Assembly (NCBI GenBank): GCA_018268315.1
Contig: JAFDWU010000002.1
Location: 62,001-126,000, forward strand
DNA from: Armatimonadota bacterium
Lineage (GTDB): Bacteria; Armatimonadota; Fimbriimonadia; Fimbriimonadales; Fimbriimonadaceae
Direction: 5' to 3'
DNA length: 64,000 nucleotides
Shown: piece after piece, positions 48,493 through 55,345 of the stretch
How positions within the stretch are numbered: position 1 is the first letter of the stretch
Layout of the letters: every line of letters begins with the position of its first letter
Notes under the pieces: generated by a model
Database searches by the model: none
Told to the model about the DNA's origin: nothing
What the model saw: the letters and a program-made list of their open reading frames with translations, nothing else
Made by a program: the position numbers and the translations under genes

Positions 48493-49137
48493 ATGCAGAT
48501 CGATCCCCTCGGCGACACCGCGTTAATCGTTCGCGATCTGGTTCTGCCGTCGTACCACGTCGCCGATCTGCTGAACGTCAGCCGCTTTCCCGGCCTTATC
48601 GAGGCAGTCGCAAGTTACGAAACGGTGGGCGTCTTCCTCGACCCCGCCGAGTTTGACTACGAAGGATTTGAGAGCCTTCTTGAAGGCCTCCCCGTCCTCG
48701 AGAGCGAAAAGCCAAGGCGAACGCTGTCGATTCCCATCTGCTACGAGCTAGGCGAGGACCTACAGGGGGTGGCGAATTCTTTGGGAATCAGCAAGGATGA
48801 GGTGATTTCAGAACACCTTTCTCACGCCTATCTTTGCTACGCAATCGGCTTCTGCCCGGGTTTCCCGTTCCTGGGCTATCTCAGCCGCCCAATTTCCGGT
48901 GTCCCGCGCCTGCCGTCGCCGCGAGCCCATACCGAACCGGGATCAGTGGGCATCACCGGCCGCCAAACCGGCATCTACCCCATTGACCGCCCCGGCGGCT
49001 GGCCAATCATCGCCCGAACACCGCTGACCCTCGTGGATGAAGCAACCCACTACTTTCCAATCCATGCCGGTGACGAGATTCTGTTTCGGCGCATTGACGA
49101 GAGTGAGTTCAACAAGCTCAAGGGGCTGCGGTTTTGA
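48493..49137 (+). CDS. pxpB: 5-oxoprolinase subunit B
   Basis: A 214-residue PxpB/KipI-type protein. The carboxyltransferase-1 (AHS1) signature IPICYELGEDLQGVA, then GFCPGFPFLGYLS and GSVGITGRQTGIYPIDRPGGW, is complete. With PxpA and PxpC it forms the ATP-dependent enzyme that opens 5-oxoproline to glutamate. It is first in a B-A-C operon; pxpA starts inside the last codon (TTGA). Earlier names include KipI, but the linked A subunit supports the 5-oxoprolinase role. Confidence 0.95.
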   Translation: MQIDPLGDTALIVRDLVLPSYHVADLLNVSRFPGLIEAVASYETVGVFLDPAEFDYEGFESLLEGLPVLESEKPRRTLSIPICYELGEDLQGVANSLGISKDEVISEHLSHAYLCYAIGFCPGFPFLGYLSRPISGVPRLPSPRAHTEPGSVGITGRQTGIYPIDRPGGWPIIARTPLTLVDEATHYFPIHAGDEILFRRIDESEFNKLKGLRF

Positions 49138-49820
49138 AGGTCGATCTCAACGTCGATATCGCGGAAGGATTTCCGTACGATGAGGCGCTGCTTGATTTCG
49201 CCACTTCGGCCAACATCTGCCTTGGCGTGCATGCCGGCAACCGTGAACTCACTCTTAGGACTATCGAGAGGTGCAAGCGAAAAGGAGTGCGCATTGGTCT
49301 CCACCCAGGCTTTAACGATCGCGCAACGATGGGACGCGGCCGAGTTGACGAAGATCAATTAGAATCGTTTGCAGAGAACCTGATCAGCCAGTGCCAAGCC
49401 TTTCTAGATGATGGCCATGGGTTCGCCTACGTGAAGCCACACGGAGAGCTCTACCGATGGTTGACTGCGGACTACCCTGGCCAAGAATTCCCCTGCCATC
49501 CGGCACTGCGCCCTTTTTTGGATTGGGCATGCTGCGAGATAAAGCTGCCCATGATGCTGCTCCCCTGCCCCCTCGCGGATCACATTCCAACCATACGAGA
49601 AGGGTTTGCGGATCGGGCGTATGGCCCAGATGGGCGGCTGGTTCCCCGTTCCGAACCGGGAGCAGTGCATTCGTCTCAAGAGATGATTGTAAAGCAGGCG
49701 CTCGCCCTCGTCGGCAAAGTCGACAGCATCTGCCTTCATGGAGATGGAGAGCACTGCGTTGAGCACGCCGCTGCGACTGTGAAGGCAATGCGAGAACACC
49801 ACATCGAGGTGAGGGCTTGA
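49134..49820 (+). CDS. pxpA: 5-oxoprolinase subunit A (LamB/YcsF family)
   Basis: A 228-residue PxpA. The LamB/YcsF core is clear: VDLNVDIAEGFPYDEALL with ANICLGVHAGN, GLHPGF, YVKPHGELYRW, and the closing ICLHGDGEHCVEHAAATVKAM. It is somewhat shorter than the 244-residue E. coli protein. The start is a TTG overlapping the pxpB stop, and its end overlaps pxpC by 4 nt. These overlaps fit stoichiometric synthesis of the complex. Confidence 0.95.
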   Translation: MKVDLNVDIAEGFPYDEALLDFATSANICLGVHAGNRELTLRTIERCKRKGVRIGLHPGFNDRATMGRGRVDEDQLESFAENLISQCQAFLDDGHGFAYVKPHGELYRWLTADYPGQEFPCHPALRPFLDWACCEIKLPMMLLPCPLADHIPTIREGFADRAYGPDGRLVPRSEPGAVHSSQEMIVKQALALVGKVDSICLHGDGEHCVEHAAATVKAMREHHIEVRA

Positions 49821-50707
49821 GCCTTATCTTGCGGCAGGGCTACGGCATTGCGACGATCCAAGGCGCTCCCAACCCCGGCTACCGTAAGTTCGGAGTACCG
49901 CCGGGAGGCGCATTCGACATGATTTCGCTTGCGTTTGCGAACGCGCTTGTTGGCAATGTTTCCGATTTGCCCACCGTCGAATTGGCGCTGTTCACCGGCA
50001 CCTTTGAATCGACATCGAAGCACCTACTGGCAGCCGTAGGAGCCGAGGCGGAAATCCTCGTGAATGGCACTCAGCTGCCTAATCGACGGTCTTTTCTGGT
50101 CTCAAAGGGAGACTCGATTGAAGTTAAGTCCTTCACCCGAGGCTGTCGCCTCTATCTGGCTTCAAAAGGAGGGTTCTTTCACACGCTCGAAGGACCGCTG
50201 CCACGAGGGGCGGAACTTGAGTCGGCAATATTTGAAGGCCCGCCAGCGGCATCAGAAGCGCCGGAGCCCTCGTCGCTTGCCAATGAGAAGTTAAGGATTG
50301 TTCCCGGTCCCCACGCGAACCTGATCGACTTTAGCCAACTAGAAGCCTCCACCTTCAAGTTGGGAGTAAAGATGGATCGGGTGGGAATTCGACTTGAGGG
50401 CCCCATCCTTGGGAGCGCGCCGGAGCTTCCATCCGAACCCAGCGTGATGGGGGCCATTCAGCTTACGCCGGCCGGGGAGCTGATCATTCACGGCCCCGAT
50501 GGCCCCACCGTGGGCGGTTATCCAAAGGTGGCGGCTGTAATCTCCGCCGATTGGCCAAAGATGGGCCAACTAACCCCAGGACAAGAGCTGAAATTTGAGC
50601 TGGACTCCCTTCGCCAGGCACGGATCATGGCGGAGCGCCATGAGCGAAAGTTGAGATCGCAACTGGCCGAGTTGTTTAAGAAGGGTCCTTCTGATTCAAC
50701 CGGGTAA
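49817..50707 (+). CDS. pxpC: 5-oxoprolinase subunit C
   Basis: A 296-residue PxpC/KipA (AHS2) protein. SLILRQGYGIATIQGAPNPGYRKFGVPPGGAFD at the start is diagnostic. MDRVGIRLEGP and the GYPKVAAVISADWPKMGQL block follow. The TTG start sits in TTGA at the pxpA stop. Its last 32 nt overlap the convergent lipoprotein gene. The complete BAC set indicates a functional 5-oxoprolinase. Confidence 0.95.
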   Translation: MSLILRQGYGIATIQGAPNPGYRKFGVPPGGAFDMISLAFANALVGNVSDLPTVELALFTGTFESTSKHLLAAVGAEAEILVNGTQLPNRRSFLVSKGDSIEVKSFTRGCRLYLASKGGFFHTLEGPLPRGAELESAIFEGPPAASEAPEPSSLANEKLRIVPGPHANLIDFSQLEASTFKLGVKMDRVGIRLEGPILGSAPELPSEPSVMGAIQLTPAGELIIHGPDGPTVGGYPKVAAVISADWPKMGQLTPGQELKFELDSLRQARIMAERHERKLRSQLAELFKKGPSDSTG

Positions 50708-51101
50708 AGGTCGAAGTGCCTTCCTCGGAAACCAGAATGAACTGGTTATCCTTGCGCCATGTGACCTTGCCTTTCCGCGAAGCAGTCGCCATCTTGACTT
50801 GCTCTACAAACAGTTTCTTTAGGTGCGGGTCAAGCCCCTTGTACTCAATGGCATCCTGATTTGAATTCAGACTAAGCTGATCGCCGCCGAATTGGTATTT
50901 GCCGCCGACCTTGCCCGACATGCCCGCCATGTCGACCTGCATCCAGAACGTCTGGTCATCGTTGAAGCGGCATTTGGCGGCAATACCGTTATGCGGCACC
51001 GCCATGATTCCTTCCCATTCGCCAACGATTGAATGCGAACCACCGCAGCCGCAAGCCACTAGCGCAAGGAAGCCTACGGATACTTTCCCGAAAACGGACA
51101 T
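50676..51101 (-). CDS. Small lipoprotein (paralogue of the next gene), function unknown
   Basis: A 141-residue protein. MSVFGKVSVGFLALVACGCGG ends in a lipobox. The mature part opens with SIVGEWEG and continues through strand-rich sequence with lipocalin-like strand order (WMQVDMAG.., GKYQFGGDQLSLN), ending at VTWRKDNQFILVSEEGTSTFTRL. The same pattern (WxG.., GTYKVEGDKLSF, DGDHFILKNEKG) occurs in the adjacent gene, so the two look like diverged duplicates. GATAAT ends 9 nt before ATG 51101. It overlaps pxpC at the 3' end. Confidence 0.8.
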   Translation of the reverse strand: MSVFGKVSVGFLALVACGCGGSHSIVGEWEGIMAVPHNGIAAKCRFNDDQTFWMQVDMAGMSGKVGGKYQFGGDQLSLNSNQDAIEYKGLDPHLKKLFVEQVKMATASRKGKVTWRKDNQFILVSEEGTSTFTRLNQKDPS

Positions 51102-51127
51102 CCTGAATGAATTATCGGTCAGCAGCT

Positions 51128-51520
51128 TTAGTTCCCGAAACGCTGGAACGATTCCTCAATCCCCTTCTCATTCTTTAGGATGAAGTGATCGCCATCAATC
51201 CAACGGATTGTCGAATTTGACGTGCGGCGCATCTTCGCCAATTGCTCGCGAGCAACGTTAAGCTTAACCGGATCAGCTTCAGGCAGCTTTGCATTCGCGT
51301 AATCCAAGTCAAAGGAGAGCTTGTCTCCCTCGACCTTGTAGGTGCCGTCTATTTGGATGCCCGCTCCGCCGATTTCCGTTGTTAATTTGCCATCGCCCTT
51401 GAACGTCATTTTTGTAGCAATAGTGCCCAATTGCCCCACCCAGGAACCAACCAAGTTGTTCTGAGGACCGCACGCAAAAAGTACGAGGGCTACGGGCAAG
51501 ATCAACAACCTTCGATTCAT
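51128..51520 (-). CDS. Small lipoprotein, paralogue of the preceding one
   Basis: A 130-residue protein. MNRRLLILPVALVLFACG gives a lipobox with the ATG at 51520. The body has NLVGSWVG, GIQIDGTYKVEGDKLSFDL and DGDHFILKNEKG, matching the neighbouring lipoprotein in order and spacing. It is likely a barrel-like periplasmic or outer-membrane lipoprotein. TATTGT ends 6 nt before the ATG; a GAGGT lies too close to act as a Shine-Dalgarno. It runs toward the other lipoprotein gene and is divergent from the GlnE-like gene. Confidence 0.8.
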   Translation of the reverse strand: MNRRLLILPVALVLFACGPQNNLVGSWVGQLGTIATKMTFKGDGKLTTEIGGAGIQIDGTYKVEGDKLSFDLDYANAKLPEADPVKLNVAREQLAKMRRTSNSTIRWIDGDHFILKNEKGIEESFQRFGN

Positions 51521-51526
51521 ACCTCG

Positions 51527-51532
51527 ACAATA
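51527..51532 (-). promoter_or_regulatory. -10-like TATTGT, 6 nt before ATG (leaderless type)
   Basis: Minus-strand TATTGT, then CGAGGT, then ATG 51520. Confidence 0.5.
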
Positions 51533-51581
51533 CCGCAAGGACCGGGCCAAACTAAAGGAGTCGCGAGTTAAGGAGCACCAG

Positions 51582-52808
51582 TTGGAAATCCCATTGCAAG
51601 AATTCAAAATCAAGCTCATAAACGATTTTAAGCCGTGGGGTCAAAGACTGATCGATGTCGTGGAGGCGATTGCCCACCCGGATGAGGTTTATACCGAGAT
51701 GCAAGCGAGCGAAGCTGCTCGTGATAGAGCCCTAAGGCTGGTCAAGTTTGCCCCCCATCTAGTCTCGGCGCTCGGCTGGCGGCCCTCGGTGTTGAAATCC
51801 GTTGTCGGCGGCAAGCGCGTCTCGGTCGACACGGTTGTCAACAATTTCAAGGCTCTCCCGATAAGCACCAGTGAGCCAGATCTTGCCGAGGCATTTGTCT
51901 CAAGCCACCAATTTCTTCAGGCCGACTGGCTGCTTAATGCAGGGTTTGACCTCTGGGTTGCCACCTCTCGGCTGACGGAAGCCCTGATCGTCCACTCCAT
52001 TGAGCGATTGGGCCTCGACTTCGATGTCTTCGCCCTCGGCGAACTCGCCCGGCTTGAGGTTGGGCCGAGCATGGAGATCGAGCTAATGCTTCTTGCAAGA
52101 GCCGACAACCAAGAGGTTTCCGAGGCCGAAGCGATGCGGTTGGTCCGGTTCTTCCAAGCTCTACAGCAGCACGGCATTGAACTGTCCGCGAGGCTCATCG
52201 GACTAAACGGCGTGGTCAATGAAGAAGCCCTGAAAGAATATGACTTGATGGCGCTGCCGCTTCCTTTACGGTTCGCATTGGGTCAAGCCCGCCTGATAGC
52301 TGGCCGGCCGTTAGGAGAGCAGGTTCAACGGATTGGTTATGCGGTCCCTCTAACGCCGGACCGGCTTCGAGAACTCAGCCAGTTTAAGAAGCATGAGGAG
52401 AACACCCACCTCCAACCCCCCAATGAGCTGCGCAATTTGTATCACGGCCACGGCGGCCTGCAGGATATTGAGTGGCTCGTTCACATGCACGAGTTGCGCT
52501 ACCCCGGAGCAACCCAGGCAGGCACCACGCTTGATATGAAGGAGCGCTTGCGCAGCCTCGCAAGATCGGGATTCCTCAATGCGCTGGAACTCGAGGTGCT
52601 TTTGGAGGGCCATGACGAAAGGTTGCGACTTCGCGAATATCTTGCGGTGCTAGGCGTTGAGAAGGTGCCGGAGAATCCCGACAAGCTTGCGCTGCTCGCC
52701 GAACTGTGGCAGGTGAAGGATGGAAATGAGTTCTTGAAACAGCACGAGCGTTCAATGGAGACCGTCCGTCAGATATTCTTAGGTACATTGGATCGGTTCA
52801 AAGCCTAG
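51582..52808 (+). CDS. Half-length GlnE-family protein with altered catalytic motif
   Basis: A 408-residue protein, less than half of a full glutamine-synthetase adenylyltransferase (about 950). The family pattern is readable: a LTEALIVHSIERLG helix, GELARLEVGPSMEIELMLLARAD at 153-175, RLIAGRPLGE at 238-245, and GGLQDIEWLVHMHEL at 291-305 (GlnE: GGIRDIEFxVQ). Where active enzymes have S-D-x-D, this one has M-E-I-E (Glu165, Glu167), and the glycine pair of GKLGG is also changed. It may be inactive, altered, or a regulator. The TTG start has AAGGAGCACCAG upstream. plsY follows by 10 nt. Confidence 0.72.
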   Translation: MEIPLQEFKIKLINDFKPWGQRLIDVVEAIAHPDEVYTEMQASEAARDRALRLVKFAPHLVSALGWRPSVLKSVVGGKRVSVDTVVNNFKALPISTSEPDLAEAFVSSHQFLQADWLLNAGFDLWVATSRLTEALIVHSIERLGLDFDVFALGELARLEVGPSMEIELMLLARADNQEVSEAEAMRLVRFFQALQQHGIELSARLIGLNGVVNEEALKEYDLMALPLPLRFALGQARLIAGRPLGEQVQRIGYAVPLTPDRLRELSQFKKHEENTHLQPPNELRNLYHGHGGLQDIEWLVHMHELRYPGATQAGTTLDMKERLRSLARSGFLNALELEVLLEGHDERLRLREYLAVLGVEKVPENPDKLALLAELWQVKDGNEFLKQHERSMETVRQIFLGTLDRFKA

Positions 52809-52818
52809 GTTCGCCCGC

Positions 52819-53487
52819 ATGCTTTTTGCACTTTTTGCTTTCGCATACGTCCTCGGCGCGATCCCCTTCGGGGTGATCGTTGCTCGTGCCTCAGGCGTTG
52901 ACATCATGACAACCGGCAGCGGCAACATCGGCGCCACCAATGTTCACCGCACACTAGGAGCGGGAAAGAGCATCCCTGTCTTTCTTCTGGATGTTGGCAA
53001 AGGCTTTGTGCCCTCATTCATTGCCCTGACTTCCTTCGGCCGATCCGATCTTGCCTTCTTGGTCGGTTTGACCGCGGTGCTAGGGCACTGCCTCAGCATC
53101 TTCCTCAAATTCAAGGGCGGCAAAGGCGTTGCCACTGGGCTTGGCGTGCTCATTGGTAGCGTGCCACCCGTTGCGGGGCTCGCCTTTTCAATCTTCGTAG
53201 TCGTCTTGGCGGTCACCCGCTACCTCAGCCTGGGATCAATCATCGCAAGCCTTGCGCTAGTCCCGCTTGGTCTGGCCTTCCACGAGCCTTTAGCGGTCAA
53301 CGTCTGCCTCGGCTGCCTCACCCTGTTTGTCGTCCTGCGCCACCGCAAGAACATCGAACGGCTTAGAAGCGGAAATGAGCCTAAATTCTTTCTGAAGGGC
53401 GCTCCCCAGACGGCAGCCGTCGAAGGTCCGCCGGAACCCCTCCAGTCCCAAACAAAGTCCGAAGAAGTGGTGCCATTTAGCGGATGA
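52819..53487 (+). CDS. plsY: Glycerol-3-phosphate acyltransferase PlsY
   Basis: A 222-residue PlsY that acylates glycerol 3-phosphate from acyl-phosphate, the first phospholipid step. Motifs: GAIPFGVI, GSGNIGATNVHRTLG, GHCLSIFLKFKGGKGVATGLG and HRKNIERLRSGNEPKF. About five hydrophobic helices are seen. A C-terminal tail of about 30 residues (Pro/Glu/Gln rich) is longer than usual. The next gene starts in ATGA at its stop, placing plsY at the head of a lipid/LPS-type operon. Confidence 0.96.
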   Translation: MLFALFAFAYVLGAIPFGVIVARASGVDIMTTGSGNIGATNVHRTLGAGKSIPVFLLDVGKGFVPSFIALTSFGRSDLAFLVGLTAVLGHCLSIFLKFKGGKGVATGLGVLIGSVPPVAGLAFSIFVVVLAVTRYLSLGSIIASLALVPLGLAFHEPLAVNVCLGCLTLFVVLRHRKNIERLRSGNEPKFFLKGAPQTAAVEGPPEPLQSQTKSEEVVPFSG

Positions 53488-54275
53488 CCACGCAGCAGTT
53501 ACTCGAATCTCCCGCCTACGTGGTGATGTCAATCGTGATCTGGATACCGATCACGGTGTGGATCATCTCCATGGTCCACTGGGCCGTTAGCGGTGAAATT
53601 GATGTACTCACGGCGTTTCTTGGCGTCTGCACGGCGTTGGGCCTGGGCATTCTCGCCATTGTCCCACCCGCCCCGTTTTGCACCCCCCTTGCGTCTGCGG
53701 CTGCCTTCTTGACCGTATTGCTGTATCCCTATTTCCGAAACATGAACGAGAAGCGGCAACTTGGGGCACTGGAAGTTCAGGGCGTTGAAAAGGCTTATGA
53801 GCAATTAGCATTCCGTCCGGATAACGTTGGCGCCAAGCTGAAGCTTGCGAAGCTACTGTGGGGACGCGGTCTGTACGGATATGCTATCGCTATTAGCGAA
53901 AAGACGCTCCGGGGGCTCCCCGAAAACGTCTTTCATGAGGAGTTCAAGATGCTGACCTCATGGAAGAACCAATTTCGCGAAAAGCCAACCAGTCTTCCCT
54001 GCCTTGACTGCGGAACTCAAAATGACCCCGGGAACCTTCACTGCAAGCGTTGCGGCGCCCCGTTCTTGCTTTACTATGCTCGTGGCGCATGGCTTGGCCC
54101 GGACCTTACGAAGCGCGTTCTGAATGGATGGGTTGCGGCGATGGCCCTTATTGTTGGCTTTCCAGCGGCTGCTATGACCTTGAATCGGGTCCTGATAATC
54201 CCTGCCGTCATCATTCTCGGAGGGGCTGCGGGCTACTTCACCTATTTGGCCGTGAAGCCATCCAGCACTTCATGA
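53484..54275 (+). CDS. Membrane protein with TPR-like helix and zinc ribbon
   Basis: A 263-residue protein of unknown function. Two or three TM helices lie in residues 12-78, a soluble helical segment (VEKAYEQLAFRPDNVGAKLKLAKLLW, TPR-like) at about 98-150, a zinc ribbon (CLDCGTQNDPGNLHCKRCG, about 173-190), and two further TM helices at the end. The same trio (zinc ribbon, TPR, TM) occurs in the 46783-48015 protein in a different order. It starts in ATGA at the plsY stop and ends in ATGA at lptF, so it is embedded in the envelope operon. Confidence 0.78.
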   Translation: MTTQQLLESPAYVVMSIVIWIPITVWIISMVHWAVSGEIDVLTAFLGVCTALGLGILAIVPPAPFCTPLASAAAFLTVLLYPYFRNMNEKRQLGALEVQGVEKAYEQLAFRPDNVGAKLKLAKLLWGRGLYGYAIAISEKTLRGLPENVFHEEFKMLTSWKNQFREKPTSLPCLDCGTQNDPGNLHCKRCGAPFLLYYARGAWLGPDLTKRVLNGWVAAMALIVGFPAAAMTLNRVLIIPAVIILGGAAGYFTYLAVKPSSTS

Positions 54276-55345
54276 AACGACTGGATCGCTACGTAATCCG
54301 TGAACTTCTAGTCCCCTTCTTCATTGGCACGTTCGCGGTTGTGCTGATGTTCCAGGCCAATCAGCTGATGGCCGATTTCAAAACGTACTCCATCCAGCAT
54401 GTGCCGACCATTGCAATCGTTCAATTGGTCCTGCTGAAAACGCCGTTCTACCTTCAGCTCACGTTGCCGGTCGGAGTCTCCCTGGCGACTTCCCTTGCCT
54501 TCAGCCGCCTGACCCGGGAAAGCGAGCTCACCGCAATGCGCGTCGCCGGCGCGCGGATACTGCGGGTGGTTATGCCGGCGGCCGCATTTGGGCTCCTCGT
54601 TGGTGTTGGCAATTTCTTCATCGTGGAGAAGCTGATGCCGCAAAGCGAGCGGCAATTCCGCAAGCTTTCCATCCAGGTAGGCGTTCTTGGCGCAGCCCCC
54701 GACTTTGCCTCCAATGTTACGATCAAGCTGAAGAATTACGTTGCCTTCATAGGCACCGTAAGCCGGGCTCGCGATGGGGCAGCCCAACTCTCGGACATCC
54801 TGCTTTACGATCGCCACATTTCCGGCTCTGAGGTGCTGATGACGGCGCCAACCGGAAGATTTAAGGACGGGATTTGGACGCTTCAGAAACCGTACGTCCA
54901 TGTGCTTAAAGACAAGAGCTTGGTGCTTGCCGAGTCGCGATCAGACATGATCCTGAACGAGAAGATTCCCCTCCAAGACCTGTTCATGGCCCCGATGCCG
55001 GAAGAGCAGAATGCCGCCGAGCTTAGACAAGCGATTAACGGCGCACATAAGCTTGGGCAAAGCACGAACAGCATGGAAGTGGTGTATCACACCAAGTTCT
55101 CCGTGCCGGCGGCATGCATGATTTTCGCGTTTACCGCTCCAATCTTTTCAATCATCTTTGCGCGGCACGGTGGCCTTGCGGGTGTGCTTCTCAGCATCAT
55201 CCTAGTCTTTGCCTACTACAACGGCTTCGTAATTTCCACCGAAATCCTTGGCCGTACGGGACTCGTGCCGCCCATTATCGCCGCCTGGCTACCCAACTTT
55301 ATCTTTGCCGCCCTGGGCTTTTTCGCCTTGCGGAGGCTTGAGTGA
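54272..55345 (+). CDS. lptF: LptF/LptG family LPS-transport permease
   Basis: A 357-residue permease. The N-terminus MKRLDRYVIRELLVPFFIGTF is the family start; three TM helices lie at about 10-100, a beta-jellyroll periplasmic domain at about 140-260, and three more TM helices end at FAALGFFALRRLE. It belongs to the LptB2FG extractor. Only one such gene is here; a paralogue may be elsewhere. It is coupled by ATGA to the gene before and GTGA to lptD, which supports export of a lipid-linked glycan or LPS-like molecule. Confidence 0.9.
   Translation: MKRLDRYVIRELLVPFFIGTFAVVLMFQANQLMADFKTYSIQHVPTIAIVQLVLLKTPFYLQLTLPVGVSLATSLAFSRLTRESELTAMRVAGARILRVVMPAAAFGLLVGVGNFFIVEKLMPQSERQFRKLSIQVGVLGAAPDFASNVTIKLKNYVAFIGTVSRARDGAAQLSDILLYDRHISGSEVLMTAPTGRFKDGIWTLQKPYVHVLKDKSLVLAESRSDMILNEKIPLQDLFMAPMPEEQNAAELRQAINGAHKLGQSTNSMEVVYHTKFSVPAACMIFAFTAPIFSIIFARHGGLAGVLLSIILVFAYYNGFVISTEILGRTGLVPPIIAAWLPNFIFAALGFFALRRLE

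Follow-up and report, generated by a model that had tools for sequence, protein, structure and literature searches.

A glnE orthologue reduced to a degenerate C-terminal half in a Fimbriimonadaceae genome, with a helical bundle probably retained for a non-catalytic role

GlnE adds AMP to glutamine synthetase (GS) and also removes it, thereby switching the synthetase, with PII as activator. The enzyme is built from two nucleotidyltransferase units with a regulatory region between them, and measures about 850-1000 amino acids in all. Some members of the nucleotidyltransferase superfamily naturally have Glu at one of the carboxylate positions. In the literature library searched, no paper on GlnE in Fimbriimonas or Fimbriimonadaceae was uncovered, and for nth-glnE fusions nothing relevant stood among the titles listed. 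Here, we describe a half-length GlnE relative from the window, a 64,000-nucleotide stretch of a Fimbriimonadaceae (Armatimonadota) genome, and compare it with its counterparts across the family.

A second point of reference comes from the antitoxin of the HepT/MntA system. Changing its GSX10DXD motif to GSX10EXE, which gives MntA(D39E,D41E), abolishes modification (adenylylation) of the partner while leaving partner binding intact (PMC7641770). This variant shares an ExE core with the protein described below, although it is engineered and far smaller, and the likeness is one of working mode only.

In nearly all of the Fimbriimonadaceae relatives examined, glnE lies in the standard order nth-glnE-plsY-(Zn ribbon)-lptF-lptD and encodes a normal two-domain protein of ~880 amino acids. 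Comparison of gene order places the frame at 51582-52808 of the window in the glnE position of this conserved locus, and its product aligns with only the linker and the C-terminal half of full-length GlnE proteins. The window gene is a glnE orthologue reduced to its C-terminal half; a horizontally acquired nucleotidyltransferase is ruled out by the synteny. The preliminary description had correctly placed the half beside plsY and lptF and away from glutamine synthetase, but this is not an unusual arrangement, being the standard position of glnE in Fimbriimonadaceae. The features of the locus are as follows.

51570..51575, + strand: AAGGAG, Shine-Dalgarno-like, 6 bases upstream of the TTG start (read from the sequence)
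51582..52808, + strand: putative GlnE C-terminal-half pseudoenzyme, 408 amino acids (open frame with stop; synteny, motifs, model)
51582..51941, + strand: residues 1-120, N-terminal helices and linker, equivalent to the inter-domain region of full GlnE (alignment, model)
51942..52223, + strand: residues 121-214, degenerate nucleotidyltransferase core (alignment, model)
52038..52043, + strand: Gly153-Glu154, replacing Gly-Ser of the nucleotide-binding turn (alignment)
52074..52082, + strand: Glu165-Ile-Glu167, replacing the catalytic Asp-x-Asp, exactly in the GlnE DxD columns
52179..52208, + strand: residues 200-209, ELSARLIGLN, replacing DLRLRPEG.. (alignment)
52350..52805, + strand: residues 257-408, conserved C-terminal helical bundle, PF08335-like (profile, alignment)
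52819..53487, + strand: plsY, the next gene and conserved glnE neighbour, starting 10 bases past the stop of the GlnE half
53484..55345, + strand: Zn-ribbon protein and lptF-like gene, in the conserved downstream order

The frame starts at a TTG codon, and its GC content by codon position (0.67/0.36/0.65) is ordinary for coding DNA along the whole length. A frame error or a truncated assembly was considered and rejected, given the intact frame, the gene's own ribosome-binding site and its place inside a 667-kb contig; a truncated assembly is also countered by the other genes that fill the region upstream. A frame problem behind a copy that differs from relatives with an intact DxD had been named at the outset as something that would count against the reading; the relatives do have the intact motif, but the frame of the window copy is sound. 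The genome (2.8 Mb, estimated 100% complete) has no other GlnE, there being no match to PF03710 elsewhere, and hence none of the separate complete copy for which a search had been proposed.

The usual glnE neighbour nth (endonuclease III) was not recognised in the window genome, whose two HhH-GPD matches (L297 and L298) are MutY-like and Ada-AlkA-like. One deletion could have taken nth and the N-terminal half of glnE together. The site that holds nth and the first glnE half in relatives is occupied by a 5-oxoprolinase-like pxpB-pxpA-pxpC set (48493-50707, + strand). Two adjoining small lipoprotein-like genes (50676-51619, - strand), 27% identical to each other, run divergently from the GlnE half, and weak relatives of this pair lie upstream of glnE/nth in G016, G011 and G068.

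The 408-residue protein contains one GlnE-type nucleotidyltransferase unit and aligns as a C-terminal half, in agreement with its first characterization as a half-length, single-unit protein. Its bundle carries GGLQDIEW (291-298) and PENPDKL (363-369); the former is the family's GGLsDIEW, so the GGxQDIE motif had been read correctly. A Pfam scan detects PF08335 alone, at the cut-off, over residues 284-399, and finds no match to PF03710. Among the NCBIfam models, PRK14109 (GlnE) matches the C-terminal region at 2.4e-6, scoring 25.9 bits where the cut-off is 625, and the other GlnE models are likewise far under their cut-offs on the same region. A GlnE profile match therefore exists, contrary to one outcome that would have spoken against the original reading. 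The weak PF08335 match is also what the half has in common with GlnD, the PII uridylyltransferase, but the half has neither an HD nor an ACT domain and no nucleotidyltransferase motif, and its gene position as well as its best profile match correspond to GlnE.

A search of the PDB by sequence found no relative. An AlphaFold2 model built from 14 sequences is confident (pLDDT 87.9, pTM 0.88), and its best PDB matches in a structure search are 1v4a (TM 0.77, E 8.5e-13) and 3k7d (TM 0.70, E 1.2e-11). The first is the N-terminal AR half of E. coli GlnE and the second its C-terminal AT half, so that the fold is that of a GlnE half. In sum of likeness, the half shares with GlnE an orthologous locus, the fold of one GlnE half and a bundle with the GGLxDIEW and PENPDKL of the family's full enzyme; it differs in having one unit rather than two, in lacking SDxD, the GS turn and RLRP, and in the lack of PII in its genome.

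In the C-terminal half of full-length relatives, SDxD and RLRP are present in 33 of 33 proteins, nearly always preceded by GS. Where the active C-halves read GS...SDxD...RLRP, the window half aligns with GE...MEIE...ELSARL; Glu200 stands in the column of the third catalytic Asp, RLRP has gone, and close by there is a deletion of ~6 residues. The replacement of DxD by E165-I166-E167 was thus described accurately from the beginning, but two other motif assignments need correction. The 'RPxxGE segment' (GRPLGE, 242-247) does not correspond to RLRPEG of GlnE, whose place at ~200-207 reads E-L-S-A-R-L-I-G. Likewise, the changed glycines of GKLGG refer to the wrong half: GKLGG is a motif of the N-terminal unit, an active C-terminal unit carries GS[YF][GA] instead, and the relevant change is Ser154 to Glu.

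A nucleotidyltransferase with a new target was one of the two original proposals, and in such an enzyme the triad would be Glu-Glu-Glu. All three carboxylate positions of the window copy do remain acidic (E165, E167 and E200), and ANT-4 entries met in the structure search naturally carry Glu at one such position. An active enzyme of this kind is nonetheless highly improbable: the nucleotide-binding Ser is now Glu, RLRP is gone, and the designed ExE form of MntA is inactive (PMC7641770). Comparison with the other halves found in the family (see below) weighs in the same direction. SDxD and RLRP are lost in all eight halves, and the residues at the DxD positions of the other seven are T-D, P-R, P-R, D-K, P-S, G-E and P-E, so that ExE is private to the window genome (0/7). 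Since these residues vary among the halves, Glu165 and Glu167 are rejected as a conserved new motif, and ExE looks like a step of decay and not a new active site. Considering the loss of motifs in every half, with substitutions in the other seven that differ from those of the window copy, together with the MntA result (PMC7641770), we think that catalysis has been lost in the window half, in keeping with the other original proposal, of a catalytically silent protein.

How widespread are such halves? A C-half profile search across 85 family genomes found them in eight: the window genome, G065, G007, G009, G091, G010, G092 and G022. Three of these, from two genera, have endonuclease III joined in frame to the half, which follows it (G010, L103; G092, L164; G022, L104/L253). 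These fusions, like the window protein, combine a dead C-half with a preserved bundle, whereas the window half is unfused and its genome has no recognised endonuclease III. A fused Nth was also considered for G008, G014, G011 and G025 and rejected: the N-terminal extensions of their long frames are not Nth sequence, and nth is a separate match upstream of glnE. Elsewhere in the order no further half was seen, and the shorter frames present appear to result from contig ends.

A tree of RpoB divides the half-carrying genomes into at least four groups, namely the window genome; G065; G007, G009 and G091; and G010, G092 and G022. A single clade of all halves is rejected (p-AU 6e-7), and a clade of G010, G092 and G022 is compatible with the RpoB data; the RpoB fragments of G079, G088 and G100 were left out of this topology test. 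A five-residue deletion common to G007, G009 and G091 is consistent with one origin for these three. A GlnE match is missing from about 15 genomes of the family, and wherever the plsY locus of such a genome was inspected, the glnE position stands empty (in G083, plsY comes immediately after nth). That loss of the whole gene is tolerated in these genomes is a point against a retained function of the halves.

To assess what has been kept, the domains of each half were compared by identity with 33 active full-length relatives. In every half, the linker and the nucleotidyltransferase core have diverged further than in any of the 33. The bundle of the window half (257-408), with a mean identity of 39.3% to the active relatives, lies above nine of the 33; the G065 bundle lies above 18, and the bundles of G007, G009 and G091 lie above only one, though they score far higher than the cores of the same proteins. 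G009 and G091 share 51% identity in the bundle and 23% in the core. The window half retains 28 of 40 conserved columns in the bundle versus 13 of 29 elsewhere, a difference that is weakly significant on its own (p 0.048). Its deletions are in-frame only.

A more direct measure comes from the close pair G010/G092. Over the dead half as a whole, dN/dS is 0.081 (0.052-0.114), with 0.020 (0.003-0.035) in the bundle and 0.043 in the dead core, and the attached Nth gives 0.068; a control pair, G017/G094, is too similar to yield useful values by domain. The low values in G010/G092 reflect selection on amino acids, beyond what protection of the reading frame alone could produce. In the window copy, purifying selection is suggested indirectly by the intact frame, the conservation of the bundle and the behavior of the other lineages.

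These data bear on the strongest rival explanation, that the half is a functionless relic in slow decay, its frame kept open only because, in the first gene of a plsY-lptF-lptD unit, translation prevents polar effects or, in G010 and G022, because of the fusion to Nth. Much about the family fits such a relic: GlnE is dispensable in many members, PII and the type I synthetase (GS-I) tend to vanish along with it, the linker and core are clearly relaxed, and the half stops 10 bases upstream of plsY. Polarity, however, guards a frame and not its amino acids, and in the G010/G092 bundle replacement changes accumulate 50 times more slowly than silent ones. In addition, the same bundle columns are kept in four lineages, and plsY is intact in genomes without GlnE. 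We therefore regard simple decay as unlikely.

If the bundle is retained, is its partner still the glutamine synthetase? The window genome lacks PII, as do G007, G009, G091, G010, G092, G022, G002, G015, G019, G028, G081, G083 and G093, but it does contain GS-I with the adenylylation-loop tyrosine (DEDLYELP). The other seven half-carrying genomes (G065, G007, G009, G091, G010, G092 and G022) are missing GS-I. A different, loop-less synthetase stands in its place in G007, G009, G010, G022 and others, and a GS-II-like enzyme (L182) is the sole GS of G065. G019, which the RpoB tree places closest to the window genome, keeps the GS-I loop tyrosine (DLYELP) and has no PII and no GlnE match, but its assembly also lacks a plsY match, so that the absence of GlnE is uncertain. 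Among six independent pairs, loss of GlnE goes in the same direction as loss of GS-I in five (sign test 0.06) and as loss of PII in three to four; the trend toward joint loss is consistent but not significant. Two further observations concern the synthetases of the family: in many Fimbriimonadaceae the place of GS-I is taken by a second GS type (L122-L128; ~480-510 amino acids, no adenylylation loop), and the strongly reduced genomes G028 and G093 (1.5 Mb) have no match to glutamine synthetase, PII or GlnE.

The half might still serve GS-I by binding without modification, as an inhibitor, stabiliser or adaptor that replaces the PII/GlnE cascade. This idea, which ranks next after slow decay among the rivals, draws on the presence of a GS-I with its loop tyrosine in the window genome, on glutamine synthetase being the target of full GlnE, and on the precedent that dead nucleotidyltransferases can retain partner binding (MntA, PMC7641770). 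We consider it improbable, because the other seven halves reside in genomes where GS-I is gone and a different GS or GS-II is found instead, and because G019, which has no GlnE match (in an assembly that also lacks the plsY locus), still has the tyrosine loop.

The interpretation that we favor, and judge to be probably correct, is that the window protein is a GlnE-derived pseudoenzyme retained as a putative binding protein, probably for a partner other than GS-I. It builds on observed orthology, motif loss, recurrence, bundle conservation and, in one close pair, purifying selection. In the window lineage, the glnE locus would have lost the upstream nth and also the part of glnE that encodes the AMP-removing N-terminal half. 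What was left would then have lost its adenylylating site (SDxD to MEIE, GS to GE, and loss of DLRLRPEG), and PII would have been lost from the genome as well. The protein is very probably still expressed and folded, and its C-terminal bundle is probably retained for a role without nucleotide transfer, most likely the binding of another protein, perhaps a partner shared across the lineages. Retention of the same bundle in three other lineages without GS-I is what suggests that the partner is not GS-I, and also that the second role predates the loss of the enzyme and was probably already present in the full-length GlnE of Fimbriimonadaceae. The broader form of this proposal, in which the bundle of the family's full-length enzyme has a GS-independent, non-catalytic second function that was exposed by at least four independent losses, is advanced more tentatively, with the case for it falling slightly short of even.

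GlnE is a textbook enzyme that has been thought to serve a single purpose. In these genomes the active site, PII and mostly the substrate are gone, but one and the same part of the protein persists. An annotation of 'GlnE-like' therefore need not imply regulation of glutamine synthetase. Retention in separate lineages, with measurable selection in one of them, suggests that the C-terminal domain of GlnE has a role not yet described, for which the halves would be natural separation-of-function versions of GlnE.
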